This document shows, piece by piece, positions 125 to 37,401 of a DNA stretch of 44,223 bases. Origin of the DNA: a virus; IMG/VR virus record IMGVR_UViG_3300005264_000109, positions 1 to 44,223 of that record. One strand, given 5' to 3'. The position numbers and the translations under genes were made by a program. The first letter of the stretch is position 1. Each line of letters begins with the position of its first letter. A model generated the notes under the pieces. It had not been told where the DNA came from. It worked only from the letters and a program-made list of their open reading frames with translations, and ran no database searches.

Positions 125-546
125 TTATTTCATCATTTCTTTAAGCATTTTGTCGGTAATATTAGGAAATTTATTTTTCAATGCTCTCAATATCGTCTCT
201 TCGCTAGCATTATCAATCACTTTTTGTTCCTTTTCTTCCTTACTCAACCCGTTTTTACCCTTTTGTGCTAGCAATTCTTTAACATTAATAATCATTACAC
301 CGTTTTTGATTGTAAACCTACTGTCAACTAACTCCTCTTCACCCTTGACCAGCTTTTTCAACTTTTCATCACTCAAGTTTCGAAGAAACGTGTTTTGCAA
401 ATAAACCGTTAAACTCTGTGCTTCGCTGCACAACTTACACAACGTATCAATATCTATTCCTTTTTGATTGCTTGCTTATCCTTATTGATTGCTTGCTTAT
501 CCTTATTGATTGCTTGCTTATCCTTATTGATTGCTTGCTTATCCAT
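125..546 (-). CDS. Hypothetical protein with 7-residue repeats; frame change near 465-475
   Basis: The function is not recognised. An ATG at 546 with an AAAGGAAA ribosome-binding site starts a reading frame that encodes four copies of DKQAINK. It stops after KKE at about 457. The following 100 or so codons, which are clearly coding, lie in the -1 frame: CKLCSEAQS, then a lysine- and glutamate-rich helical C-terminus ending KEMMK. Joining the frames at the AAAAAG run (minus strand, about 465-460) gives one protein of about 140 residues. The alternative is a separate 105-residue protein starting with TTG at 442. The gene is a lone leftward unit closed by the terminator at 63-99. Confidence 0.6.
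464..544 (-). repeat. Four tandem 21-bp repeats in coding sequence
   Basis: Nearly four perfect 21-bp units (464-481 partial, 482-502, 503-523, 524-544) encode the heptapeptide DKQAINK at the N-terminus of the leftward gene. Because the unit is a multiple of three, copy number can change without altering the frame. Confidence 0.9.
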
Positions 547-627
547 AATGTGTTTCCTTTCGTTATATTAAGTAATTGATATTGTACTATACAATATCCA
601 TCATATAACATAACAAAAGTACTTTAT

Positions 628-654
628 AGTTGTGTAAGATTTTCTTACATATCT
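628..654 (-). repeat. 27-bp palindromic element, copy 1
   Basis: Near-palindrome with core arms GTAAGA and TCTTAC. Read on the minus strand it matches the directional form (AGATATG flank first, ACAACT flank last). It lies 82 nt upstream of the leftward gene start at 546. Confidence 0.9.
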
Positions 655-762
655 ACATTATATATCTTTATCTCATTTCTAACAATCTTAATCTTTTCTC
701 AAGTACTATTGATTTTTTTTAAGTATCTTAAACTCTTTAGGATAATTTATATATGTTTCTTC

Positions 763-786
763 CAGTCTTACTTTGTAAGCTTGCAA
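763..786 (+). repeat. 24-bp repeat shared with right end (left copy)
   Basis: Identical to 43121-43144 in the same orientation. The core CTTAC-TTT-GTAAG can form a short hairpin. A third copy (43298-43321) has the flanks reversed and complemented but keeps the TTT centre. Confidence 0.85.
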
Positions 787-930
787 TTCTTCCATTTTGT
801 TTCCTTTTATGTTTATGTTAATAAACGTTTCGTTAGTTCACTTTATATGTATGCAATATGTATGCCAAAACCTGCAACTGGCACAAATTTTTATCCCACT
901 AATCAAAACATTAAACTTACATCATGTAAC

Positions 931-978
931 ACTAGCGCTAGTTGCACCATGTTGGTACAAGTGTATCACAATGATACA
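931..978. promoter_or_regulatory. Three adjacent dyads
   Basis: A perfect 12-bp palindrome ACTAGCGCTAGT (931-942) is followed by an interrupted dyad (942-960, arms TTG/ACCA and TGGT/CAA). Next is TGTATCA-CAA-TGATACA (962-978, 7-bp arms). Such close packing outside genes suggests protein-binding sites. Confidence 0.6.
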
Positions 979-988
979 GCTATTGTAT

Positions 989-1057
989 GTGCGATTATTG
1001 ACCAGTGGTTAATAATCATCCGCACAACTTTCGACCAGTGGTTGATAATTAACCACT
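989..1057. promoter_or_regulatory. Two 17-bp iterons within dyads
   Basis: The sequence GACCAGTGGTT(A/G)ATAAT occurs at 1000-1016 and 1033-1049, 33 bp apart. The first copy lies inside an inverted repeat with outer arms GTGCG/CGCAC (989-1024). The second forms AGTGGTT-7 nt-AACCACT (1037-1057). The GGTTGATAAT part recurs at 41307-41316. They could be operators or replication iterons. Confidence 0.55.
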
Positions 1058-1355
1058 AGCCTACAGTACACTTTTATATAAACGCTAGTGTATATTTGTT
1101 CACTAATCTATACCTTATACTATACATATATACCCTAGTTCTTATCTCACAACTTTGGCATAGTATCTGCTACAGTGTATATAGTACACCACCCGCCCTA
1201 GGGGAAAAATGCAACTGTTCCGTAGTTTACTATCAATCTCACAAAAATTTTTCCTCCGAAAGTTGGTATACTATTTCTACGAAAAATAAAATTCTATTTT
1301 GCGGTAAATAGTAAATTAACAATATTGTCAAAATGAATGGAAGTCTAAATTTTAC

Positions 1356-1393
1356 TTGACTTTGATGAATATGTTGTGTAAGTTATATATAAT
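1356..1393 (+). promoter_or_regulatory. Candidate promoter for the structural arm
   Basis: TTGACT (1356-1361) and TTGATG (1362-1367) precede TATATATAAT (1384-1393). TTGATG to TATATA has a 16-nt spacer. Between them lies GTTGTGTAAG (1373-1382), which matches one arm of the 27-bp element. This is the only promoter-like sequence close to the first rightward gene. The assignment rests on pattern alone. Confidence 0.35.
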
Positions 1394-1433
1394 GAGACGA
1401 ACGAAAAGCAAATTAACAATAAGGTTAAATGAG

Positions 1434-1448
1434 GTGTTCGTAGAACAC
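1434..1448. promoter_or_regulatory. Palindrome GTGTTC-GTA-GAACAC
   Basis: A perfect dyad with 6-bp arms and a 3-nt centre lies immediately before the ribosome-binding site of the first rightward gene. The same 15 nt occur at 42540-42554 inside a coding sequence. It could be an operator or an mRNA hairpin over the translation start. Confidence 0.4.
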
Positions 1449-1462
1449 TAAGGATTAACACT

Positions 1463-2059
1463 ATGGGCAGGCATCCAACGAGTAGTAGGAAGTATGAGAT
1501 TCAACATCTATGGGATAAGCACTTTGAGATAGCGAGACTCGCAGTCATGGGGTATCATCCAAGTGAGATAGCGCCAGTGGTGAACATGACCAAAGAACAT
1601 ATTAGCTCAGTGTTTAATTCAGATGTGTTTAAAGCTCATGTGGTAGCGTTGAGAAATTCTCGTGATGAAGGAGCTACCGATGTGAATAAGAGAATTATCG
1701 AGATGGCTCCTGTTGCGATGCAAAGACTGCGAGAGGTAGCAGAAGAGCCCCTGTTTATTGAGGATCCAGAGTTGGGAAAGATTGCTAACCCACATGCAAA
1801 TGCACAACTAAGTGTTAAGGTAAGTCAGGACCTACTTGATCGAGCTGGTTATGGAGCTATAGAACGTAAAGAAACTATGAACTATCAAGTGAGTGATTTG
1901 ATTAAATTAAAAGATGCTGCGATTGCAGCAGGGATAGAAAGTGGTCAGGTTGTGGTTGAGGATGCAGAAGTTGTGAGTGAAGAAACAATCCGTGAAGAGG
2001 ACTGCGATCGGAGTCACGATAATCATGAAGAAGACAATACTATGAACGATACTAACTAA
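1463..2059 (+). CDS. Probable terminase small subunit
   Basis: 198 residues. The N-terminal part (about residues 20-60) looks like a helix-turn-helix: IARLAVMGYHPSEIAPV followed by a second helix and SSVFNSDVFKAHV. This resembles the DNA-recognition domain of small terminases and related phage HTH proteins. The middle is helical and the C-terminus is very acidic. It is the first gene of the rightward arm, starts with ATG after AAGGATTAACACT, and overlaps the next gene (TAATG). terL lies 4.8 kb downstream. A small terminase would bind the packaging site and load the large subunit. The assignment rests on the HTH, size and position, so another HTH protein is possible. Confidence 0.55.
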   Translation: MGRHPTSSRKYEIQHLWDKHFEIARLAVMGYHPSEIAPVVNMTKEHISSVFNSDVFKAHVVALRNSRDEGATDVNKRIIEMAPVAMQRLREVAEEPLFIEDPELGKIANPHANAQLSVKVSQDLLDRAGYGAIERKETMNYQVSDLIKLKDAAIAAGIESGQVVVEDAEVVSEETIREEDCDRSHDNHEEDNTMNDTN

Positions 2060-2349
2060 TGCCTAAAGCTGCAAAGGGTGACATAGAACCAAGAACCCAG
2101 GTTCGAAAGAAAACATTATATGATACTAATATAGGCGATGGCAGTTATTATATAACACTAGCCAAGAATCAAGATTATATTTGTGCTACTACAGGAACTA
2201 GGTTTGATTCAAGTTATGATGTTTATTATAATCCTGACTATGATCATTTAACAATTCAGTATGCTAGTGATAATAGATTTAAGGTCGAGATAGAAGAAGT
2301 TTCAACTATAAACTCTATTGTGGAGGATACGTTTAATTATGAAAACTAA
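2059..2349 (+). CDS. Hypothetical protein
   Basis: 96 residues, not recognised. The start overlaps the preceding stop (TAATG), so translation is probably coupled. The protein is rich in Tyr and Asp, with beta-type segments (YYITLAKNQDYICATTG, HLTIQYASDNRFKVEIEEV) and no membrane segment. It sits between the probable small terminase and the exported cassette and may be a small virion or accessory protein. Confidence 0.65.
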   Translation: MPKAAKGDIEPRTQVRKKTLYDTNIGDGSYYITLAKNQDYICATTGTRFDSSYDVYYNPDYDHLTIQYASDNRFKVEIEEVSTINSIVEDTFNYEN

Positions 2350-2629
2350 AAACTTTATTTTAAATACAAGTAGTGGACGTGGTTCACTTGTTTGTTTGGT
2401 GTTGATGTTGGTGTTAGTTCTCTTATGCCCAAGTGATGGGAGTTGTCAAATACTTGGCAACTCTTACACTTGGCAAGATACGATAGTAATTTCAGGGACT
2501 GCGATAGATACAAGTTGGAGTTCACGGATTCCTACACTGATTAATGCTGGAGATATTTTTGTTATCGACGATGGGAAGAAGTTACGTAGGGCAAAGTTCT
2601 GGACTGAGAAGAAGACTTCACAATATTAA
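2339..2629 (+). CDS. Small exported protein
   Basis: 96 residues from the ATG at 2339, chosen because GGAGG lies 12 nt upstream; an upstream in-frame start at 2318 lacks this. Residues 1-36 form a signal peptide: basic start, hydrophobic core CLVLMLVLVLLC and a polar cleavage region GSCQ. The mature part is about 60 residues and beta-rich (TWQDTIVISGT, AGDIFVIDDGKKLRRAKFW). No clear lipobox is present. It is the first of four consecutive genes with export signals, placed between the packaging genes. The function is unknown. Confidence 0.65.
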   Translation: MKTKNFILNTSSGRGSLVCLVLMLVLVLLCPSDGSCQILGNSYTWQDTIVISGTAIDTSWSSRIPTLINAGDIFVIDDGKKLRRAKFWTEKKTSQY

Positions 2630-2683
2630 GTAGTGCAGTAAATCTCTGATTTGAATCCAAACAAATGTTTTAATAATATCGTT

Positions 2684-2710
2684 AGATCTGTAAGAAAATC
2701 TTACACAACT
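2684..2710 (+). repeat. 27-bp palindromic element, copy 2
   Basis: Directional form, with the ACAACT flank followed directly by AAAAGG, the ribosome-binding site of the signal-peptide gene starting at 2727. Confidence 0.9.
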
Positions 2711-2726
2711 AAAAGGTAATTTCGCT

Positions 2727-2855
2727 ATGAAAAATAAAATATGGTTTATACTATGGATGGTGTTATCGTTGAGTTGGTTAGTTGCAGTCATGACACTACA
2801 TGCACAAACTGTCAAAAAAGGTTCTCAAGCTAACACCTACAACATAACCAACTAG
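2727..2855 (+). CDS. Signal-peptide leader of the beta-helix protein (frame change at its end)
   Basis: The ATG at 2727, with AAAAGG upstream, starts a 42-codon frame. It has a basic N-terminus, a hydrophobic core (IWFILWMVLSLSWLVAVM) and a cleavage-like HAQTVKKG, and stops at TAG 2853-2855. The +1 frame, open from 2848, continues with protein-like sequence (SKLALKSTYNIASD) straight into the beta-helix protein. The leader and the 814-residue frame therefore very probably form one polypeptide of about 884 residues. The junction AAC-TAG-C could be a +1 recoding site at a stop codon, or the record could carry one extra base. Confidence 0.6.
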   Translation: MKNKIWFILWMVLSLSWLVAVMTLHAQTVKKGSQANTYNITN

Positions 2856-2937
2856 CAAACTTGCTCTCAAGTCTACCTATAATATTGCCTCTGACACGAC
2901 TGTACTGAAAGCTTTCGATCCTCTCAACGGTCAAACT

Positions 2938-5382
2938 GTGTATGTGCCAGGAGATAGTTGGTATATGCTTGCAGATAGTATTTTTGATGAGACAAGTTCT
3001 AAGGTATTTTCTTCTACAACAGCTGGAAAACAATGGATAAGTGAAGATCTTGTTTTAAATGAGAACAGAAAAATATTTTATGTAAATCCTCTAATGACTC
3101 AAACTCAACTCCAAACTGTATTTAATTTAGCTTCTGCAGAATCAAAAAGTCAAGTTACTTTTATGGGAGGTAGCTATACCTTTAATGATAGTATTTATAT
3201 AGATGGAACAAGTGATATAATTATAGAAGGAAATAATTCTACTGTTACTCTTGATACTTCGTATTTTATTATAACTACTAATGCAAGTTATAAAACTTTT
3301 TCAGACTTTGATTTTACTATGACAGAGGCAATGTTTGATGGGGAGATACTAAAAGACTCCTCTTGGGTTCTAATTAATGATAGTACAGATTTTGCTCCTT
3401 TGTCTAGAGGAGATGCTTTAGTACTTGCAGATTCTACGGAAGATATTTACTTTTCAAATCAACAATTTTATAGAGGAGATATATTATACTTCGATAGATT
3501 TAGTGTTGATGGAGCTCAACAAAAGATGCACTTTGAGAAACCCTCTCTTGTAGCTATAAATGTTAATAGTGATCTTTATGAAGATCTTCAAAAAGCTAAC
3601 TTAGCAGAAAAAAGAGTTACAGTAAGAAATTTACAACTTTATAATACTCGATTACAGTTTAGTGGATTTGAGAATGTACTTATAGATAATGTACATATAG
3701 TTGGGCCTTTTACTGAAACTACTGCTCCTGGAGGACTTCCTATTGATACTATTAGAAGAGGCTTTTCTACTCATCAATGTAGATTTGTTTCCTTAATAAA
3801 TTCATCTGCTGTAGATTGGGCATTAACAGCAGAAGGTTATGGTTTAATGGCTTACGCTTTTGATAAGCTCTATGTTAATAATTGTTTCTTTCGAAATTGT
3901 AGACACGCAATAACTACTATCTCATACGGACACGCATTATCTCATGATGCTTATGTAGGAAATTCTACTGCAATATCTACTATACCTAAAGATGAATTTA
4001 ATGTTTCTTTGTTTGATACTCACCCTCAAACTTATAGTATGGTATATGAAAATTGTATTGCTCGTGGAGGTTATTCAAGTTTTAATGATAGATCAAAAAA
4101 TGTAACTTTAATCAATTGTGAAGCTTATGATACTTATAGAGGATTGCGTGTAGCTATAACGAAAGATTCTACTCGAAACAATGTAATAGTAGATGGATTT
4201 AAAGTAAGAAATACTACAAGTGTGATAAAATTTGCTAATAATATAAATACAAAATTTGTAAGTTTATCGGGGTTAGAGGTTGATAATACTGATTTGATTA
4301 TAAATATTGGCACAGATTCTTTTACTGTAGATAAATTTGAGATAAAAGATTCAAGAATAAATTTTGGAGGAACTGGTACTGTAATGACTTCAGGTCTTAC
4401 TCCTAAGTCTCCAGTAGAATATTTAATAACTGAACTTGAATTAGATAATGTCAAGTTAGATTCTATGTCACAGTTAATAGTTAATCCTTCAGTTAATATA
4501 CGAAATCTTAAAGCAAAAAATTGTGAATTTAATTTAGCTAATGATTGGTTTATTCAGCATACTGCTACAGATACAGCAGCAACAGATGCCTATGTTTCTT
4601 TTGTTAATTGTGATTTTTATAATATTAATAGATCTGCTGGAGCACATATAGGAGCTGCTACAGGTATAATTAGATATAATAAATTTATCTTTGATAGAAA
4701 TACTATTCATAGTGGAAAGTCTATTCTGGATTTTAAAAGGATATATATAGATACTGTTATTATAACTAATAATAATTATACTTCTGAATTTGAACGAGGG
4801 TTTGTATTTTTTGATGATCCTTATGTAGCTCGAGAAATATATATTCAAGATAATAATTTATTTGGTTTACCTGGAATATCAAGTAAATTTATAGATGCTT
4901 CTGATTCTACTTTAACAGGTAAAGCTCGGTATCATATAAATGGTAATAAGATGAATACTGAAACTTCTGAAGTAGCTCATTTATTTTATAATGATTTCTA
5001 TGTAATAGATAATATATTTAATTTTTCTCATGTAGATGCGGTATCGAATACTATGTTACTAGAATTTAAATATGGAGCTACGGGATTTGTTTTTGATAAT
5101 AGATTTATTATTAATGTAGATTCTGGAGTTACTGATTGTATTAGAATTCGTAGTGCTGAAGATACTCTTATTATAGATAACAACACCTTTATACAAACAA
5201 GTAGTACAGCGTCTCAGGCTATAGATCAAGACGCTGGATTATTAACTATAGGTAGAAATAGTACTTACGGATTTAGTGCTCCAAGTTTTGCAGGAGATCA
5301 AGATTGGCTTGATATGATATTAAGTATAAATGTTATAGATACAGTAGTAGTTGATGCAGATACAATTAACTGGGTTAAATAA
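2938..5382 (+). CDS. Parallel beta-helix tailspike-like protein (pectate-lyase fold)
   Basis: 814 residues from a GTG at 2938; coding sequence in this frame begins by 2848 and probably belongs to the signal-peptide leader at 2727. The body is a long series of short beta-strand and turn repeats with Asn/Asp ladders (VTLINCEAYD, VRNLQLYNTRL, NVIVDGFKVRN). The stretch FDTHPQTYSMVYENCIARGG is typical of right-handed beta-helix tailspikes and pectate-lyase-superfamily proteins. Such proteins bind or cut surface polysaccharides. Catalytic residues cannot be assigned by eye. The N-terminus lacks an obvious virion-anchoring head domain and instead follows an export signal, which is unusual for a tailspike. 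Confidence 0.75.
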   Translation: MYVPGDSWYMLADSIFDETSSKVFSSTTAGKQWISEDLVLNENRKIFYVNPLMTQTQLQTVFNLASAESKSQVTFMGGSYTFNDSIYIDGTSDIIIEGNNSTVTLDTSYFIITTNASYKTFSDFDFTMTEAMFDGEILKDSSWVLINDSTDFAPLSRGDALVLADSTEDIYFSNQQFYRGDILYFDRFSVDGAQQKMHFEKPSLVAINVNSDLYEDLQKANLAEKRVTVRNLQLYNTRLQFSGFENVLIDNVHIVGPFTETTAPGGLPIDTIRRGFSTHQCRFVSLINSSAVDWALTAEGYGLMAYAFDKLYVNNCFFRNCRHAITTISYGHALSHDAYVGNSTAISTIPKDEFNVSLFDTHPQTYSMVYENCIARGGYSSFNDRSKNVTLINCEAYDTYRGLRVAITKDSTRNNVIVDGFKVRNTTSVIKFANNINTKFVSLSGLEVDNTDLIINIGTDSFTVDKFEIKDSRINFGGTGTVMTSGLTPKSPVEYLITELELDNVKLDSMSQLIVNPSVNIRNLKAKNCEFNLANDWFIQHTATDTAATDAYVSFVNCDFYNINRSAGAHIGAATGIIRYNKFIFDRNTIHSGKSILDFKRIYIDTVIITNNNYTSEFERGFVFFDDPYVAREIYIQDNNLFGLPGISSKFIDASDSTLTGKARYHINGNKMNTETSEVAHLFYNDFYVIDNIFNFSHVDAVSNTMLLEFKYGATGFVFDNRFIINVDSGVTDCIRIRSAEDTLIIDNNTFIQTSSTASQAIDQDAGLLTIGRNSTYGFSAPSFAGDQDWLDMILSINVIDTVVVDADTINWVK

Positions 5383-5396
5383 ATTGGAGAAATACT

Positions 5397-5930
5397 ATGT
5401 ATAAGAAATTATCTTTACTAATCTTTATGCTATTACTTGCATCAGTAAGTATAGCTCAAACCTTTATTGAGTGTCCACACTATATGATACAGGATTCATT
5501 GTTTGCAGACACTACTGTGACTAGAGACTTTTGGTTTAATACTGCTGATGATAGTTCAAAAATAGTTTATAATAATGGAAATATAGATCTTGATATATAT
5601 CCAAGATGTGTAGGTGGAGATGCAGACGATGATACTCTTACGATAGAGGTTTATGGTTTAAAACTTAAAACTCTTTTTGCTGATAAAAGTAAAAGCGTAG
5701 CTCAAGAAAGATATACTGTGTTTGCTATTGATTGTGTTCGAGTTACAAGTACTCTTGCAGCAGATACTCTTTTACACTCTTATGCGTTGGATAGTTTCTG
5801 GGGCTCGGATATACCTCTTTTAGATGGAGTTAGAACTGTAATTAAAAATCAAGGTGCATCTGATGGAGATAGTGTGCTAGTAGATAGTAATATTAGAATA
5901 TATCACAAGGCTACTAAGCGTTGGTGGTAG
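5397..5930 (+). CDS. Exported hypothetical protein
   Basis: 177 residues, ATG preceded by TTGGAG. Residues 1-20 are a textbook signal peptide: YKK, then LSLLIFMLLLASVSIAQ with likely cleavage before or at QTF. The mature region is beta-rich and acidic (TVTRDFWFNTADDSS, DDDTLTIEVYGLKLKTL) and contains SKSVAQERYTVFAIDCVRV, suggesting a single beta-sandwich domain. It follows the beta-helix gene by 14 nt and may bind it or share its location. Function unknown. Confidence 0.7.
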   Translation: MYKKLSLLIFMLLLASVSIAQTFIECPHYMIQDSLFADTTVTRDFWFNTADDSSKIVYNNGNIDLDIYPRCVGGDADDDTLTIEVYGLKLKTLFADKSKSVAQERYTVFAIDCVRVTSTLAADTLLHSYALDSFWGSDIPLLDGVRTVIKNQGASDGDSVLVDSNIRIYHKATKRWW

Positions 5931-5955
5931 ATATGTAAGAATTTCTTACACAACT
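5929..5955 (+). repeat. 27-bp palindromic element, copy 3
   Basis: Overlaps the last bases of the previous stop codon and ends 13 nt before the ATG at 5969, running into AAAAGG. On its own strand it is identical to copy 11 (minus strand, 37375-37401). Confidence 0.9.
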
Positions 5956-5968
5956 AAAAGGATTTATT

Positions 5969-6799
5969 ATGAAAAAGAAAATATTTTTGAGTATAGTTTT
6001 ATTTATGTTGTTTATAACTTCAGTGTTTGTATTTCCTGGAGAATATCGAAGTGTTGTTAGTACTTTAACTAATCTTACTTCTGCTGGTTATGGAAGCGTA
6101 GTATGGAATTTTGATACGAGTGTTTGGACTCTGTCAAATGTAGGTATAGGTACAAGTTCTTCATTAAAAGCATTACATATAGATAAGACTACAGAAACAA
6201 GTTCTCAGATGATGTTTGGACCAGGAATTACAAATGTAAATTTAGCAATACCGGGTATTACTTTTAGCGCTAGTTCTGGAAATACTGGATTTATAATGGG
6301 GGTAGATGATAATAATTATGGAACGTTTGTATGGAATGCTGATGCTACTCCTGATTACTGGGGAATAGATGCAACAAGTGGAATTGATTTAGTATTACAA
6401 CATACAAATGGAGCTAATGTTGGAGTAGGTACAATTACACCAAGTACTAAATTTGAGGTTAATGGTACTTCTACTCTAACAGGAGGATTTAATCTTGGAG
6501 CTGGAGCAAGTTACACTCTGGCATCTAATGCTATAACCCTAACAGCTCCGGGTAGATTGAGAGTAGCTACAGAAGGAAATGTAGCATTAGACACTTTATC
6601 TACAATTAGTGGTGGAATAGATGGGGATATAATAATTATTACCACTATTTTAAACAATAAGGATGTAACTTTTACGACTGCTGGAAATATTATGTTAGGT
6701 ACTTCTTCTCGAGGTTTAGATGAAAGGGGTGATATAATAATGTTTATGTATCAATCAGCTATTACAAAATGGTGTGAAATAAGTTTCGTGAATAATTAA
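5969..6799 (+). CDS. Exported fibre-like protein
   Basis: 276 residues, ATG after AAAAGG. Residues 1-22 look like a signal peptide (MKKKIFLSIVLFMLFITSVF). The rest resembles tail-fibre or head-fibre proteins. Two copies of the pattern VGIGT or VGVGT followed by a K-L/F-H/E-V type strand occur (about residues 67-80 and 150-165); this motif precedes fibre shafts in many phage and bacterial adhesins. The C-terminus ends in a beta domain (DIIIITTILNNKDVTF, MFMYQSAITKWCEI) similar in style to the proteins at 8614 and 13318. A signal peptide on a virion fibre is not expected. Confidence 0.65.
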   Translation: MKKKIFLSIVLFMLFITSVFVFPGEYRSVVSTLTNLTSAGYGSVVWNFDTSVWTLSNVGIGTSSSLKALHIDKTTETSSQMMFGPGITNVNLAIPGITFSASSGNTGFIMGVDDNNYGTFVWNADATPDYWGIDATSGIDLVLQHTNGANVGVGTITPSTKFEVNGTSTLTGGFNLGAGASYTLASNAITLTAPGRLRVATEGNVALDTLSTISGGIDGDIIIITTILNNKDVTFTTAGNIMLGTSSRGLDERGDIIMFMYQSAITKWCEISFVNN

Positions 6800-6846
6800 T
6801 CTCAATACTAACACCACAAAGAATATATGAATAATCAGGAGACGAT

Positions 6847-6903
6847 ATGCCACCAGATACAGAACTAATAGAACGTATGGTTAAGGTAATTATTAATGAA
6901 TAA
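6847..6903 (+). CDS. 18-residue leader peptide overlapping terL
   Basis: A short frame, MPPDTELIERMVKVIINE, starts at ATG 6847 with a strong AGGAGACGAT site. It ends 8 nt inside the terL frame (TAA 6901-6903; terL ATG at 6896). The arrangement fits translational coupling of terL. Whether the peptide itself has a role is unknown. Confidence 0.45.
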   Translation: MPPDTELIERMVKVIINE

Positions 6904-8575
6904 ATCTATTAACATAAATGGTTTAGTTAATTCTCTTGAATTAGCTAAACAGAAAGAAGCTCTCGAACTAAAGAAACTTCGAGATAAAATCTTTCAGGAC
7001 TGTTGGTTAGACTCAAGCAAGTATGCTAAATATTATTATAAAGATAGATTTAATTTACCTTTTGCTCCTGGACATCAAAATATATTTAATGTTATAGATG
7101 CTAAGATTAAGATGCCCAATGGAGAAATAGTTCCTAAACATAATAAAATAGTAATACTATCTTGGCGTGGTTGTGGAAAAACCTCTATCGCAAAGACTAT
7201 TTTTGCAAAACGACTTCGTACAATAGATGCTAGATTCGCAGTGTATGCAGCAAAGAGTCATGATTTTGCAGCTCTGCAGACAGAGAATATCAAACGTGGT
7301 ATGATATCTAATAAAAGAGAGATTGAACATTTCGGTAGTATTAAAGCTAGTTCTAATGCACTACTTAAAGATACATTCTCCTCAAAGAGTTGGATGACTA
7401 ATTATGGAAGTTTAGTCTGGCCACGTGGTTGTGGTCAGCCAGTACGAGGACTGAACTTTGATTTTGAAGGAAAGACTCATCGAGTAGATCTAGCAGTAGT
7501 AGATGATCTCGAAGATAAAGACGAGATCGGAAGTGCTATATATAGAAAGAAAACTAAAGACTGGATCCTGACTGACTTATGCGAAGCAGTCCCACCACCA
7601 GGTGTGAGTTTGAATTGGCAGATAATATATATTGATACTCTCAAACATCATGATTCAGCAATTCAAATGTTAATAGATCGCCCTGATTGGAAGGCGTTAG
7701 TGTTACCATTGTGTGATGATAACTTTAATTCTAAGTTTCCTATGTTCTATACTGACAAGCAATGTCTCGAAAAGTATCAATCCTTTGCTAGTTCTGGTGA
7801 TGCTGATTTGTTCTTTCAAGAGTTTATGTGTAAGACTATGGACGATAAGAAAGCTCCGTTTAGGCAAGAGTTATTTAATCACTATCTAGAACATGATCCA
7901 AGTTTTCAAGAGGAACTACGTTTAGGTGAGATAGTTAATGTAGTTCTTGTAGATCCTGCTAAAACTATGAATCCTAAAAGTGCTGAAAGTGCTATAGTTG
8001 GAGTAGGTATTAATTCAAAACGAAATAAACTATACGTTCGAGATGTTGATGTAGATAAGTATGCACCAGATGAGCTATATGATCATATATTTAGAATGGC
8101 TGAAAAACTACGACCGTGTAGTGTAATAGGGATAGAGACTAACTCATTAGAAAGTTTTATTATCCAACCGTTTAAGAATGAGATGTTACGTAGAGGTTTG
8201 TTTTATCAAGTAGTTAATTTAGATCCTAAACGAGCTCCTGCAGAATCTGCAGATAAGACTCATGGTAAAGCAGGTCGTGTTAAGGGTCTGACAGGGTATT
8301 ATGCTGCAGGCTGTGTATGGCATAATAAAGCAGTCTGTGCTCCGTTAGAAACACAGCTGTTACAATTTCCTACTCCACGTCGTTGGGATGTTATGGATTG
8401 TTTTGCGTATATAGTACAGTTGTTAAACAAGGGTAATGTGTTTTTTCATTATAATCCTGAGAGTTTAAATGACAAGGCAACTGCCTATCGCAGGCGTGGA
8501 GACAATACAGAACAACAGTTTGAAGAACTCGAAGCTAGTTATGAACCAGCATTTAAATATAATCGAATTTGTTAG
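6896..8575 (+). CDS. terL: Terminase large subunit
   Basis: 559 residues. It is the ATP-driven packaging motor and headful or cos nuclease. The N-terminal ATPase has a Walker A-like SWRGCGKTS (about residues 88-96) and Walker B LAVVDDLED (about 198-206). The C-terminal RNase H-like nuclease shows VVLVDPAK with the first catalytic Asp near 352, GIETN with Glu near 413, and WDVMDC with the third acidic residue near 500. The length is normal for large terminases. The start at 6896 is coupled to the leader peptide, and a weaker AAGG lies upstream. The stop codon overlaps the next 27-bp element. Confidence 0.93.
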   Translation: MNKSININGLVNSLELAKQKEALELKKLRDKIFQDCWLDSSKYAKYYYKDRFNLPFAPGHQNIFNVIDAKIKMPNGEIVPKHNKIVILSWRGCGKTSIAKTIFAKRLRTIDARFAVYAAKSHDFAALQTENIKRGMISNKREIEHFGSIKASSNALLKDTFSSKSWMTNYGSLVWPRGCGQPVRGLNFDFEGKTHRVDLAVVDDLEDKDEIGSAIYRKKTKDWILTDLCEAVPPPGVSLNWQIIYIDTLKHHDSAIQMLIDRPDWKALVLPLCDDNFNSKFPMFYTDKQCLEKYQSFASSGDADLFFQEFMCKTMDDKKAPFRQELFNHYLEHDPSFQEELRLGEIVNVVLVDPAKTMNPKSAESAIVGVGINSKRNKLYVRDVDVDKYAPDELYDHIFRMAEKLRPCSVIGIETNSLESFIIQPFKNEMLRRGLFYQVVNLDPKRAPAESADKTHGKAGRVKGLTGYYAAGCVWHNKAVCAPLETQLLQFPTPRRWDVMDCFAYIVQLLNKGNVFFHYNPESLNDKATAYRRRGDNTEQQFEELEASYEPAFKYNRIC

Positions 8576-8600
8576 ATGTGTAAGAAATTCTTACAAAACT
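8574..8600 (+). repeat. 27-bp palindromic element, copy 4
   Basis: Begins inside the terL stop codon and ends 13 nt before the GTG start at 8614. TAAGGA follows as the ribosome-binding site. Confidence 0.9.
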
Positions 8601-8613
8601 ATAAGGACTTCTT

Positions 8614-9192
8614 GTGGCTAGAAAACGTTATTGGTTAGGTTCTCGAGGACCGTTCTTCTTTGATGATGCTGGAGATCGTGCGTATGGAGTAGAGACTGAA
8701 GGTCAAATCAAAGTAGATACTGCTCCATCAGCACAAGAAGAAGTTCTACGACTTGCAGATCTAGGAACTTTGTTTGCTCCTGCAGATGCTGAGTACGTAG
8801 TACTAACCTTGCATGCAAGTTTACCTAACGAACGAAGATTACAGGTTTCTGGAAACTTATCTCTTACTGATAATGGAGCTAATGCTGATGTTATAATAGC
8901 TACAACCTCAGGAGTTATATTAACTACAGATCGATATACAAGTAATCAAACTCTTGATGCTGATAATCATATAGTCTTGGGTGATACTGATGGAGGAGTT
9001 TTTAATATAACTCTTCCTGCAGGTATAGATGGTACTAACTATCGTATAACAAATGTAGGAAGTTCTGGAAACGATTTGACTATAATTCCTAATGGAGCAG
9101 AACTACTTGTAGGTACGAATGTTAACTTTGCACTAGCAGATAATGAAACTTTAGATTTAGTTTATGAAACTACAGAAGGATGGATAGCATGA
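8614..9192 (+). CDS. Virion fibre or decoration protein
   Basis: 192 residues, GTG start after AAGGACTTCTT. The second half is a beta-rich domain with the pattern FNITLPAGIDGTNYRITNVG, then DLTIIPNGAELLVG, ending ETLDLVYETTEGW. This order of strands (ITLP, an ILR/VNVG strand, LTI, TLVY, GW) is common in small phage capsid-fibre and decoration domains. A related pattern occurs at 13318. It sits between terL and portal, and its stop overlaps the next start (ATGA). Confidence 0.55.
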   Translation: MARKRYWLGSRGPFFFDDAGDRAYGVETEGQIKVDTAPSAQEEVLRLADLGTLFAPADAEYVVLTLHASLPNERRLQVSGNLSLTDNGANADVIIATTSGVILTTDRYTSNQTLDADNHIVLGDTDGGVFNITLPAGIDGTNYRITNVGSSGNDLTIIPNGAELLVGTNVNFALADNETLDLVYETTEGWIA

Positions 9193-9974
9193 GTTTAATA
9201 CGAGAAGTAGAAATTATATCTCCTCTTGAATCTAATGGTGCTATACCAGTTAATATTCAAGATCAGCATAGTCTTGCATTAGATTTAAATTTTATACAGG
9301 CTCAAGGAGCTCCTACAACTCTATCTGTTCAAGCTGATCCTGAAGATACTACTATAACATTAACAAGTGCTGTAGGATTTGTTGATACGAATGTTGTTGC
9401 TCTTGTTAGTAGTACAGGTATATTTTATTTTGGTAAACAAGTTGGAGCAGCTGCAGGAAATGTAATAACTCTTGATACTCCTATAGATAAAACTTTTGCT
9501 ACAGCTACTACAGTTCTTAGAGCTATTAGAAATATGAATGTAGATGGTTCTGTAGCTACTCAGATATTTCAAGTTGGTCCTGTAGGAGGAGGAACATCAA
9601 TAGAACTTGATATAACTAGAATAATGGGTTATATTCAAGATGGTACAGCTATGGATGATGCTAAATTTGGAGGTATTACAGCTTTAACTAATGGTGTAGT
9701 ATTAAGACAAAATAATAGTACAATTAATAATATTTGGAATGCTAAATCTAATGGAGAACTTGGATTATTATGTTATGATACTGCTTATACTACAAAACCT
9801 CCAGCAGGAACTTCTCATGGATTTAGATTTAGAAATACTTACGCAGGACCATCTAAACATGGAGTAACTATAAGACTTGATCCAGGAGATATTTTAGAAG
9901 TACTTATACAGGATGACTTAACAGATTTAGAAACATTTAATATGATGGCTCAAGGTCATATAGTAACTGATTAA
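9189..9974 (+). CDS. Putative virion structural protein
   Basis: 261 residues from the ATG at 9189; AAGGA lies 8 nt upstream, whereas the ATG at 9180 has no site. It overlaps the previous stop (ATGA). The composition is beta-rich, with TTLSVQADPEDTTITLTSAV and TKPPAGTSHGFRFRNTYAG, ending with an LDPGDILEVLIQDDL segment. It has no membrane segment. Position just before the portal suggests a head or tail accessory protein. The family is not recognised. Confidence 0.6.
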   Translation: MSLIREVEIISPLESNGAIPVNIQDQHSLALDLNFIQAQGAPTTLSVQADPEDTTITLTSAVGFVDTNVVALVSSTGIFYFGKQVGAAAGNVITLDTPIDKTFATATTVLRAIRNMNVDGSVATQIFQVGPVGGGTSIELDITRIMGYIQDGTAMDDAKFGGITALTNGVVLRQNNSTINNIWNAKSNGELGLLCYDTAYTTKPPAGTSHGFRFRNTYAGPSKHGVTIRLDPGDILEVLIQDDLTDLETFNMMAQGHIVTD

Positions 9975-26020: not shown

Positions 26021-27187
26021 TTACTTTCCTTCTGGCAGATACTCTATCGTACCTGCCATAGAATCAAATTTAATATATTTCATTACTTCTAACTGTTTAA
26101 TAATATTACGCAACGTGAACTCATCTGCATTATGAATAAACTTCTTGTTAATTGCTGCGAGATCAGTCCTTTGATGTGCAGCAACAAATTTCATAACCTC
26201 GACTACAACAGTAGCGTTTTTATTCTCTCCCATACCTTCAAATGTTTTAGGCATGTTGATTTCGGTCTGTTCAAGTAAGTGAATAGACTTCGAAAGATCT
26301 TCCATAGATATTATCATGTCGCTAGTTCTACATGCACTAATATTCATAGACATCTTAAGAACATGTAGTGGTCTACGAGAATTATACCCATCGAGAAACT
26401 GTTGACTAAATGGAGGTTTAGTTCTAGCCTTCATATACCAGGATGTCCATAGTTGAATGAAACCGTCGGTGAGTTTGAACTCTCCTTTCATAGCTTTTAT
26501 TTCTTCTAGGTCATGTAGTAAGTCATCAAATAACTTGATTTCTTCTTTAGTAAGAAAATGTATAGGAATCAGTCGTGATGGTTTCTCTTCATACACACAT
26601 ACCATGCGAGATGTTAGTCCTCCACCGATAGCTTCAGATGGTAAACGAGAACGAAATGTAGTCGGAGTGATTCCTCCGAGTATGTTTAGATATGGTTTGA
26701 TGATTTCATCTGAACCTCCCTCACCTTTGGTTTTATAGTCCCACTTGTCTTCGCAGTCATAGAGATCACATAGATCATCAACGAGAGTCTGGTTTTGATG
26801 ACGGATGAGGACTGCAAGTTCGCTAGAAAATATTGTAAGGGACGAGTGAATCTTCATTACTCCATCGTCCATGTTGTCAGAGAATGATTGTTGTAAATCT
26901 CGAATCAAAGCTTCGTTAGTTAGTTTCTGTGCTGCAAGTTTAATTCCAGATTTTACTAAAAACTTCTTAGCAGGATTAATAGCACGAGATTTACCTGCAC
27001 CACTAGGTCCAACTAGGACTACGAACATGTTAGGAAATGTTTCATTCATACCTATTTGAAGAGAGCATTTGCGTTGGAGAACTGCAGCGATAGCTGATAG
27101 TCCAGACCAGGTTTTGAATAGGGTAGGAGGCTCAGTGTTATTAACGTAGGTTAGGTATGAGTCTAACCAGTTATCAAGTTTTCTCAT
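26021..27187 (-). CDS. DUF3987-like P-loop ATPase (putative replication helicase)
   Basis: 388 residues. A Walker A motif GPSGAGKSR lies at about residues 59-67, after WSGLSAIAAVLQRKCSL. Later come IFSSELAVLIRHQ and GGITPTTFRSRLP with an Arg-rich GGGLTSRMVCVYEE segment. This layout matches the DUF3987 group of phage ATPases found beside DNA polymerases, thought to act as replicative helicase-like enzymes. The C-terminus looks like a winged helix (TLRNIIKQLEVMKYIKFDS). It starts on TAATG overlap with the gene before and lies next to the polymerase. Its exact activity is inferred. Confidence 0.65.
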   Translation of the reverse strand: MRKLDNWLDSYLTYVNNTEPPTLFKTWSGLSAIAAVLQRKCSLQIGMNETFPNMFVVLVGPSGAGKSRAINPAKKFLVKSGIKLAAQKLTNEALIRDLQQSFSDNMDDGVMKIHSSLTIFSSELAVLIRHQNQTLVDDLCDLYDCEDKWDYKTKGEGGSDEIIKPYLNILGGITPTTFRSRLPSEAIGGGLTSRMVCVYEEKPSRLIPIHFLTKEEIKLFDDLLHDLEEIKAMKGEFKLTDGFIQLWTSWYMKARTKPPFSQQFLDGYNSRRPLHVLKMSMNISACRTSDMIISMEDLSKSIHLLEQTEINMPKTFEGMGENKNATVVVEVMKFVAAHQRTDLAAINKKFIHNADEFTLRNIIKQLEVMKYIKFDSMAGTIEYLPEGK

Positions 27188-27591
27188 TAGTAATCAATCT
27201 TAATATATTTAAGTGTAGGTGAATTAGAATCCTTACGAATTAGTACAGGTGTAGGGTTAGTAGTACTGTTAGACCACAGAATACCAGATTTGTTTCCTGC
27301 ATTGTCGCTAGCACTAAGACCTAGACGGTAGATACCGTCAGGATATGTAGTCATGTTTATGTTGATAAAGGTGTCAGAGATAGTAGTATATGTGAATATT
27401 TTAGATGAATCTAAATAACATATGATTAGGTCATAGGTTATTATTTCTTCTGGATAGTCAGGTGGAGAAGAGTTCCAGTAGACATGTATACTATCGCTAG
27501 GGATTAGGATAGATACAGTTTGAGAGTGGACTTGTCCACATAGGACTAGACAGGTGAATAGAATAATTATTATTTTGATTAGTTTTATCAT
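27187..27591 (-). CDS. Exported FN3-like protein
   Basis: 134 residues. Residues 1-23 form a signal peptide (MIKLIKIIIILFTCLVLCGQ, then VHS|QT as a likely cleavage). The mature part is one beta-sandwich, with DGIYRLGLSASDNAGNKSG typical of fibronectin type III or bacterial Ig-like domains. An exported protein in the replication arm is unexpected. It overlaps the zinc-ribbon gene upstream (ATGA) and the ATPase gene downstream (TAATG). It could act at the cell surface, for example in superinfection exclusion, but this is speculation. Confidence 0.6.
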   Translation of the reverse strand: MIKLIKIIIILFTCLVLCGQVHSQTVSILIPSDSIHVYWNSSPPDYPEEIITYDLIICYLDSSKIFTYTTISDTFININMTTYPDGIYRLGLSASDNAGNKSGILWSNSTTNPTPVLIRKDSNSPTLKYIKIDY

Positions 27592-31268: not shown

Positions 31269-31757
31269 TTAATACCTCATCTTTTTTATTATAGTTTTAA
31301 TTATTTGACTAATTCTACCAGGAGTTAGGTTTAGCTTTTTACCTATATCAATCATAGTATATCCACTAACATACATAGCCATAATGTTTCTATCGTCGTA
31401 GGAAAATAATCTATCTTTATATATGTTATATGTGATTAGGTTTATTATAGTTTCTTCTTGATCTATAGAATAACATTCATCATATAATACATCATCTAAA
31501 AAATCAAGATGTATTATGTGACCATAGTTTCTTGTTTTTAAATGTTTTCTTATAAAGTCTATTAGTCTATAATAAACATTAGCACAAATATACTTGTTAA
31601 AATCTTGTTTAGACTTATTATGTTTATGTTTTATGTTTAGATAGACTAGATTTGCTTCTTGAATTAGATCATCTTCCTGTAATAAAGAGTAATTTTTAAT
31701 TTGTTTGTTAGCTCTTTTTATTACAGGAAGCATTTGATTGTCAAGTAGTTTTATCAT
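31269..31757 (-). CDS. RNA polymerase sigma-70-like factor
   Basis: 162 residues. Residues about 22-75 resemble sigma region 2: LLQEDDLIQEANLVYLNIKH then FNKYICANVYYRLIDFIRKH. Residues about 122-160 resemble region 4 with a helix-turn-helix: IMAMYVSGYTMIDIGKKLN followed by LTPGRISQIIKTIIKKM. The middle is acidic. Such two-domain factors redirect host RNA polymerase to phage promoters. It is the only candidate transcription initiation factor in the genome and could act with the 14 repeated elements, which is inference. Confidence 0.75.
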   Translation of the reverse strand: MIKLLDNQMLPVIKRANKQIKNYSLLQEDDLIQEANLVYLNIKHKHNKSKQDFNKYICANVYYRLIDFIRKHLKTRNYGHIIHLDFLDDVLYDECYSIDQEETIINLITYNIYKDRLFSYDDRNIMAMYVSGYTMIDIGKKLNLTPGRISQIIKTIIKKMRY

Positions 31758-36088: not shown

Positions 36089-37348
36089 TTAACTTACTAT
36101 ATATAATTCTTTTTGAGCTCTAGTTATCGCTGTATACAACCAACGCCTACGCATAGACGAGTCTCCAAATCCATTACCGAAGACTACTACTATCGGAGCT
36201 TCTGAGCCCTGTGATTTATGACAGGTTATTACATAACCGTAATCGAATGAGTCACCTCGTTCATAATAAGGTATATTGTTTGATACGAAACCTTTAGGAT
36301 TGTTGAATAGTGACCTAAACGCATTAACCGTGTGAGTAGTACCTTCATCGGAGGTAAAAGTAAAACAATAGTTATTATCAGGGAAGAATGTACATAGAAG
36401 TATCTTGTCTATAGTACCAGTCATACCATTGTATAGACCTTCTTTGTGATTGTTTTTTAGACAGATAATTCTATCGCCTGCGACTGGAGGTTCATTAGTT
36501 TTATTTAAACTATGTTTTCGTAACTGTTTATTAAACGATACTCGTTCAGCATTAGTCGCAACAATAGTCATTACAGAACTGTTAGTAAGAGCAACTTTGT
36601 CTTCGACAGAAGAGTTATTAAAGTCACGTTTAGATATCTTTCTTACTGTTGAAGAATACTCTCCATAGGTGATAGGCTTTCCTTCACGTGCCATAGTAGC
36701 AAGTCGAATGATAGGAGAGTCTGCAGCTTGGCGAAGGATAGTTTCTAATCGTATGTCAGGTGATTGCATCAAACTAAAGTTTGATTTCACTGGAGGTAAC
36801 TGTCCATGATCTCCGATACAGAGAATAGGTTTGTTGTAGCGTTTAAGGTCATTCATAAGAGATTCAGGAGTCATTGAGGCTTCGTCCATGATGAAGAGGT
36901 CTACATAGGGAGCAAATTGTTTACTACTAATATGTGGATTAAAATCCATATCTTCATTATCTGATGCTATCATAGGTTTAAAGTTCCAATCAACTACTTT
37001 ACCCTTCTCAACGACTGGTCTATACATAAAAGAATGAATAGTAGATATGTAATCATTGTTGAGAGCAGTTTCACTTTCATAGAGTTTCTTTTTCATAACC
37101 GAGACTGCTTTACCAGTGAATGAAATGAATGCAACTGAGATTTCATCTCCGAGATCCTCTCGAATATGAGAAATTAGAGTAGTTTTTCCTGTACCTGCGT
37201 AACCTCCGAGGGTCAAGACTAAGGATTGAATACTATCCTGAGCAGCAAGTTGTTTTGAATTTAGCTTAGGTGAAACTTTTTTAAATCTTCTAAACCAAGA
37301 CAGGATAGAATCTCGTGCATGTGTTTGGTCTGGAGTTAGTGTTAACAT
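36089..37348 (-). CDS. SF1 helicase (RecD/Dda-like)
   Basis: 419 residues. Motifs in order: Walker A GYAGTGKTTL (about 49-58), Walker B FIMDEASM (about 150), motif III GDHGQLPPV, a RecD-like SH3 region near DRIICLKNNHKEGLYNGMTG, motif V-like TCHKSQGSEAPIVVV (about 375), and LYTAITRAQKELYIV at the end. These are hallmarks of 5'-3' SF1B helicases such as T4 Dda and RecD. Likely role: replication start and recombination. It starts 27 nt after element copy 11. Confidence 0.92.
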   Translation of the reverse strand: MLTLTPDQTHARDSILSWFRRFKKVSPKLNSKQLAAQDSIQSLVLTLGGYAGTGKTTLISHIREDLGDEISVAFISFTGKAVSVMKKKLYESETALNNDYISTIHSFMYRPVVEKGKVVDWNFKPMIASDNEDMDFNPHISSKQFAPYVDLFIMDEASMTPESLMNDLKRYNKPILCIGDHGQLPPVKSNFSLMQSPDIRLETILRQAADSPIIRLATMAREGKPITYGEYSSTVRKISKRDFNNSSVEDKVALTNSSVMTIVATNAERVSFNKQLRKHSLNKTNEPPVAGDRIICLKNNHKEGLYNGMTGTIDKILLCTFFPDNNYCFTFTSDEGTTHTVNAFRSLFNNPKGFVSNNIPYYERGDSFDYGYVITCHKSQGSEAPIVVVFGNGFGDSSMRRRWLYTAITRAQKELYIVS

Positions 37349-37374
37349 AGTTAGTTCTTTCTTGTTTGGGTGTT

Positions 37375-37401
37375 AGTTGTGTAAGAAATTCTTACATATC
37401 T
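37375..37401 (-). repeat. 27-bp palindromic element, copy 11
   Basis: On the minus strand it is identical to copy 3 on the plus strand. It overlaps the stop codon of the small gene at 37392 and lies 27 nt before the helicase ATG. Confidence 0.9.

Follow-up and report, generated by a model that had tools for sequence, protein, structure and literature searches.

The terminase interval of the window

The window, that is, the whole stretch of DNA analysed here, is a 44,223-base virus record of a T7-like podovirus. The plus strand carries a T7-like structural block, and the minus strand the replication genes, among them those for DNA polymerase and primase. The portal (9992) and capsid (14718) genes each have a PHROG match. 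Among annotated records, Desulfofustis phage LS06-2018-MD01 has the closest capsid (40.6%); PaMx41, whose record is classed under Fredfastierviridae, and its kin match more weakly. Positions ~1-1460 are without a convincing gene and include four copies of a 21-bp tandem repeat (458-544), and the GC skew of the first 1,000 bases is opposite. A phage-encoded sigma-factor-like protein was found on the minus strand (31269-31757; phrog_351, E 3.6e-11).

The interval studied here is bordered on the left by the gene for the terminase small subunit, TerS (1463-2059, plus strand), identified by a weak PHROG match and a tblastn match to the TerS of relatives, and on the right by that for the large subunit, TerL (6896-8575, plus strand; phrog_38, E 7e-46). 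As proposed in the first-pass annotation, a cassette lies between these two genes: the ORFs 2339-2629, 2727-2855, 5397-5930, and 5969-6799, all on the plus strand, are inside the interval. They are preceded by a 96-aa gene without a leader (2059-2349, plus strand), for which no family was found in PHROG or Pfam searches. TerL is followed by a 192-aa protein, also without a leader (8614-9192, plus strand), a candidate virion fibre whose N-terminus is common to relatives and whose C-terminus is variable.

Signal peptides were scored with a home-made Sec/SPI rule based on a basic n-region, a core hydropathy of at least 2.3, and small residues at -1 and -3. Only 23 of 5,808 shuffled N-termini pass this rule (0.4%), as do 114 of 1,936 real N-termini. 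The signal-peptide check that had been recommended for the cassette gave a positive result for all four ORFs, with scores of 48 (2339), 34 (2727), 41 (5397), and 38 (5969), and RBS-like sequences are found shortly 5' of each ATG (GGAGG, AAGG, GGAG within GGAGA, and AAGG, respectively). The first ORF (within 2318-2629) encodes a 96-aa protein that is predicted to be exported or membrane-anchored, with a long basic n-region, a strong hydrophobic core, and a poor cleavage site (GSC/QIL or SDG/SC, the slash marking the cut); a holin-like topology is possible. The second is a 42-aa ORF, with the signal peptide LHA/QTVKKGSQANTYNITN and then TAG. The third encodes a 177-aa predicted exported protein, an orphan (VSIA/QTFI), and the fourth a 276-aa fibre-like protein with VGIGT-type repeats. 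The start of the latter (ITSVFVFPGEY) is hydrophobic but offers no good site for cleavage; it may therefore remain as an uncleaved anchor. The earlier description of four successive exported proteins thus stands in that the four ORFs exist and pass the rule, but the 2727 leader is out of frame with the beta-helix assigned to it and 5969 lacks a good cleavage site. The cuts given there as SIAQ/T and HAQ/T were misplaced, as signal peptidase I likely cuts between A and Q (SIA/QT and HA/QT).

Among the 46 ORFs of at least 80 aa in the window, the rule is passed only by 2339, 5397, 5969, and a fifth predicted exported protein of 134 aa (27187-27591, minus strand; VHS/QTVS), encoded between the primase and DNA polymerase genes. 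Relatives also encode exported proteins of about this small size, one of them with a weak fn3 match (L083, 2029-2409). Glutamine is at position +1 in 2727, 5397, and 27187, in 2339 only if the cut is C/Q, and not in 5969; in relatives, it is at +1 in 10 of 82 leaders. In Bacteroidota, cleavage by signal peptidase I exposes a glutamine (the Q-rule; PMC5837995), and the leaders of 2727, 5397, and 27187 fit this pattern. They are a hint, not a proof, that the host of the window may belong to the Bacteroidota. No lipobox or C-terminal anchor was seen in the cassette proteins, and none matched an NCBIfam model of the type IX C-terminal sorting domain at E 0.1, which leaves release past the outer membrane before lysis unexplained.

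The putative beta-helix or tailspike-like protein corresponds to an 844-aa open frame (2848-5382, plus strand). The leader frame of 2727 stops at a TAG (2853-2855), and the helix frame is one frame on, closed by a TAA (2845-2847) and open from 2848 to 5382. Its first start codon is a GTG (2938) mid-way in coding-looking sequence, and the codon-usage signal favours the leader frame to ~2820 and the helix frame from ~2850. The 2727 ORF probably encodes the leader that belongs to the helix gene, offset by one frame. Most simply, this is a single gene that near 2848-2853 either has a one-base error in the assembly or is truly disrupted; with codon usage switching at ~2820-2850, an assembly indel, a real frameshift, and recoding are all possible. 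Programmed +1 frameshifting at AAC TAG was considered and set aside, as it is supported only by the frame switch and an assembly error is as likely. For the beta-helix claimed earlier for the 2727 product, the support is weak: Klebsiella tailspikes are matched by tblastn at E 8e-4, but the protein has no Pfam match and its alignment-free AlphaFold model is unusable (pLDDT 35). A pectin-lyase entry motif was recognised by eye, within a non-significant profile alignment.

More generally, Pfam, PHROG, and NCBIfam searches gave nothing useful for the cassette proteins. A pattern scan of viral contigs retrieved no homologues of the window helix, 5397, or 5969, and 5397 and 5969 have no homologue among phage records. 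In one relative (L008), the ORF that immediately precedes TerL shares 36% identity with the C-terminal domain of 5969, and an iterative search of the relatives with the window proteins found nothing beyond this match, 2339 being without a homologue. The window proteins are near-orphans, and we infer their function.

A 28-bp repeat with an internal palindrome (TGTAAGAAwwTCTTACACAACTAAAAGG) is present in five copies in the window, versus 0 expected: 622-649 (-), 2689-2716 (+), 5934-5961 (+), 8579-8606 (+), and 37369-37396 (-). Four of them sit 7-20 nt 5' of the start codons of 2727, 5969, 8614, and the helicase gene at 37348 (-). It is possible that the repeat is a shared regulatory or leader element.

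Leader-bearing genes around TerL in relatives

Relatives were collected through TerL searches (15 and 80 loci), and the removal of loci with TerL more than 90% alike left 68 non-redundant loci. In many of these relatives, the gene immediately 5' of TerL is a 720-960 aa ORF whose product starts with a clean leader, and the stretch from TerL to the portal gene contains additional leader-bearing ORFs. Over the 68 loci, leader-bearing ORFs make up 58 of 358 around TerL and 8 of 538 elsewhere (p 7e-17), and for those of at least 400 aa the counts are 26 of 49 and 0 of 31 (p 8e-8), p-values that are only a guide because ORFs are non-independent observations. An exported ORF of at least 200 aa, as called by the rule, is found around TerL in 22 of the 68 loci. 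The near-complete contigs G012 and G016 each have one rule-passing protein, the helix. Using the window portal and capsid as queries added two more loci: L126, with exported ORFs of 898 aa (497-3193) upstream of TerL and 1,439 aa (5607-9926) before the portal gene, and L128, where the TerL-portal stretch has a tandem array of four leader-bearing ORFs (4186-7946). The initial proposal that the proteins are exported, with the site between the terminase genes being special in this respect, is well supported by the relatives. On the TerL tree, which has long branches, the exported trait requires 16 changes versus a shuffled mean of 20. A single origin was thus rejected, and the trait is patchy.

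The 720-960 aa proteins form a family, of which 26 members were aligned. A leader is followed by a conserved head of ~220 residues (YFxDIIVTSPDGIWTDxRAYSTL...) and then by a variable, tailspike-like C-terminal part. The leaders vary in sequence and keep their form. Every ORF properly matching the head profile has one, that of L065 alone being just under the threshold. Sequence matches of the C-terminal half are to pectin lyase, the Sf6 tailspike, and epimerases. The model of one member, L057, has a pLDDT of 62 overall and is confident only over residues 40-340 (~90). Its helix resembles those of phage tailspikes (GVE2 ORF18, Z 18.8; Sf6, 18.5; Pam1, 18.0) and of exported polysaccharide enzymes (WceF and RbmB, both Z 17.4). 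The head, which was modelled within L057 and not alone, has no fold match among those listed.

Searches of 50,697 phage records with L044 or the head as query retrieved no close relative of this family, and L057 matched only a short pectate-lyase motif. In bacterial genomes, the head gave three matches, all in MAG contigs with no usable host. The ordinary phage spikes with similar helices that were checked, those of cr126_1, Rudgehvirus jaberico, and Vibrio phage 1.158.O, are without a leader. Membership of the window helix in the family was also considered and rejected: with an hhalign probability of 0.4%, there is no detectable sequence homology, and by sequence the window helix is outside the family.

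A Gly-rich motif (IGSGGPIGGG and variants) was observed right after the predicted cut in exported proteins of several relatives (L082, 8202-9023; L033, 4646-6583; L090, 8856-9881; L051, 11150-12357). The same motif directly follows MKK, without a leader, in L043 (4777-7047) and L046 (937-3111).

The TerS-TerL interval of the relatives also contains genes for GT2 glycosyltransferases and a radical-SAM/B12/GT fusion, along with M15-type endolysin-like genes, recognised by eye, and small membrane-protein genes. Endolysin-like and membrane-protein genes are found there in the nearest TerL relatives of the window (L018, L019, and L020). In T7, the lysis genes gp18.5/18.7 are likewise placed between the small and large terminase genes. 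These neighbours suggest that the exported proteins belong to a late, envelope-directed region, the timing being read from gene position. Glycosyltransferases, radical-SAM/B12/GT fusions, and sulfotransferase-like ORFs of this interval, the last recognised by eye, were seen in L087 (3439-5535), L059 (3431-4939), L056 (5232-6863), and L083 (2646-3720). The T7 tail-fibre domain PF03906 had no match in 22 records, in a search where the control matched nowhere either.

One relative, L024, departs from the family layout. Its 789-aa protein (4493-6862) has the third head repeat and the family helix (E 1.7e-20), with most of the head missing and without a leader. In place of these, the N-terminal ~145 residues form a domain that is otherwise stand-alone (150-155 aa) and that, wherever this region of a leader-bearing relative is covered, is encoded after the portal gene. 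This adapter domain (TKPTDQxLVSELPxYIRExRxAIN) is also at the head of a fibre-like protein in L012 (5511-7412) and of the 656-aa 'hydrolase' of Desulfofustis phage OP947158. Fusions to a beta-helix, hydrolase-like, or fibre-like part were seen in L024, L012, L120 (37139-39109), and L011 (2139-3614). PHROG and PDB sequence searches with the stand-alone adapter gave nothing. Together, these observations could mean that there are two versions of the spike, one for the virion and one exported, or that an exported spike meets the adapter later. They are suggestive only, as the stand-alone adapter is also present in phages without an exported spike (L022, L025, L039, and others).

Possible roles of the exported proteins

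We favour, with a probability of about one half, the explanation that the cassette encodes Sec-exported, tailspike-like proteins that bind or cut glycans, are made late, and act on the surface of the phage's own host, in the manner of WceF. The cassette would be expressed late, judging from gene position. The host Sec machinery would move the tailspike-like beta-helix protein to the periplasm together with its small companions, and there, then outside once the cell opens, they might bind or cut the host surface or an exported polysaccharide. Such an activity could help progeny to leave by removing capsule or slime, and it could also prevent the dying cell from being bound again by progeny or by other phages. 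The first-pass suggestion that the cassette coats, remodels, or digests the host surface agrees with the tailspike- and WceF-like fold and the adjacent glycosyltransferases of the relatives; it stays a suggestion as to function. However, the window helix has no detectable homology to the family of the relatives and its leader is out of frame, and lysis would free a cytoplasmic protein too.

The exported spike could otherwise be a virion part that reaches the particle by a second route, through periplasmic storage and binding to the adapter on the particle at lysis. We consider this unlikely. The conserved head and variable helix do form a tailspike-like layout, the near-complete contigs G012 and G016 have no further recognisable beta-helix or fibre gene, and the leaderless L024 helix is fused to the very domain that stands alone after the portal gene in leader-bearing relatives, a domain that also heads the fibre-like protein of L012 and the OP947158 'hydrolase'. 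P22 tailspikes bind finished heads in vitro, which lends support to a late attachment. However, the stand-alone domain also occurs where no exported spike does, and, with no family or structure known for it, a place in the virion is only putative. The head always comes with a leader and is mostly missing in L024, and the structural genes after the portal include many proteins that could be the fibre. A fuller version appears improbable, in which the secretory pathway produces the tailspike, folding and perhaps activity take place in the periplasm, and the adapter mounts the spike on the virion only at or after lysis; if true, the final step of virion assembly would occur outside the cytoplasm.

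Surface display, or a coat that excludes superinfecting phages, a role also raised in the first-pass annotation, is rather unlikely for the cassette. Exported phage proteins with such a role exist, as in the case of Llp of T5 and Cor, and the adjacent glycosyltransferase genes suggest that the surface is altered. The 16 changes on the TerL tree are also what would be expected of an arms-race cassette. Nevertheless, the cassette proteins show neither a lipobox nor a C-terminal anchor, and a late position suits exclusion less well.

A lysis function for the small members (2339, possibly also 2727 or 5969), for example as a one-segment holin or a spanin-like protein, with the helix as the only effector, is quite improbable. 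The three nearest TerL relatives do carry endolysin-like and membrane-protein genes at the T7-like lysis position, and the remaining gene ORFs of the window (at least 45 aa) contain no strongly hydrophobic segment, which argues that some lysis protein, possibly a holin, is among the small exported proteins. Against this, the cassette proteins have no PHROG or Pfam family match, 2339 has one hydrophobic segment only, no endolysin lies beside the cassette ORFs, and 5397 and the helix resemble secreted domains rather than lysis proteins. Finally, that the hydrophobic N-termini are parts of virion proteins or chance rather than signals is very improbable, for although 5969 lacks a good cleavage site, the rule is home-made, and the window proteins are near-orphans, the chance rate is 0.4%, the enrichment near TerL is strong, and the form of the leaders is kept while their sequence varies.

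Tailed-phage spikes are taught as virion parts assembled in the cytoplasm. A recurrent leader-bearing family with a spike fold, encoded beside the packaging genes in a group of uncultured podoviruses, would mean either that a phage acts on the surface of its host from inside, late in infection, or that there is an extracytoplasmic assembly step. Acting from inside late would serve release, or the removal of receptors, sparing progeny. The family is also a source of unstudied candidates for glycan binding or cutting, and it calls for caution: phage beta-helix genes should not be named tailspikes before checking for a leader.

Comparison with known systems

The cassette shares its position with the T7-like lysis genes, whose products also act on the envelope, and relatives keep endolysin-like and holin-like genes there. 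The proteins described here differ in being large secreted domains without spanin or endolysin signatures. Compared with the tailspikes GVE2 ORF18, Sf6, and Pam1, the relatives' proteins have a similar beta-helix (Z 18.0-18.8) and combine a conserved head with a variable helix. However, the similar phage spikes that were checked have no signal peptide, whereas the head of the relatives always follows a leader and has no fold match among those listed.

Phage-encoded Sec proteins that obey the Q-rule, with a cut that exposes glutamine, have been described in Porphyromonas phages (PMC10367356). Those proteins have no assigned function and come from another phage group, whereas here they form a cassette between TerS and TerL with a tailspike-like member. 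We found no report in the open-access literature of a leader-bearing tailspike-like family beside terminase genes, which suggests that, while exported Q-rule phage proteins were known before, this family is apparently unreported.

The closest parallel to the role proposed here is WceF of Pantoea (PDB 6tgf), which follows an export signal and modifies stewartan, the exopolysaccharide of its own cell (PMC7949094). It combines an export leader with a tailspike-like trimeric beta-helix that acts on own-cell polysaccharide, as is proposed for the phage proteins, and the model of the relatives' protein matches it with a Z of 17.4. The pairing of a leader with a tailspike-like fold is present in the relatives; in the window, leader and helix are in different frames and the fold is weakly supported. 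WceF differs in being bacterial, in having a Tat leader, and in being encoded in an EPS gene cluster, whereas the phage proteins have Sec-type leaders, are encoded between terminase genes, and have a putative activity.
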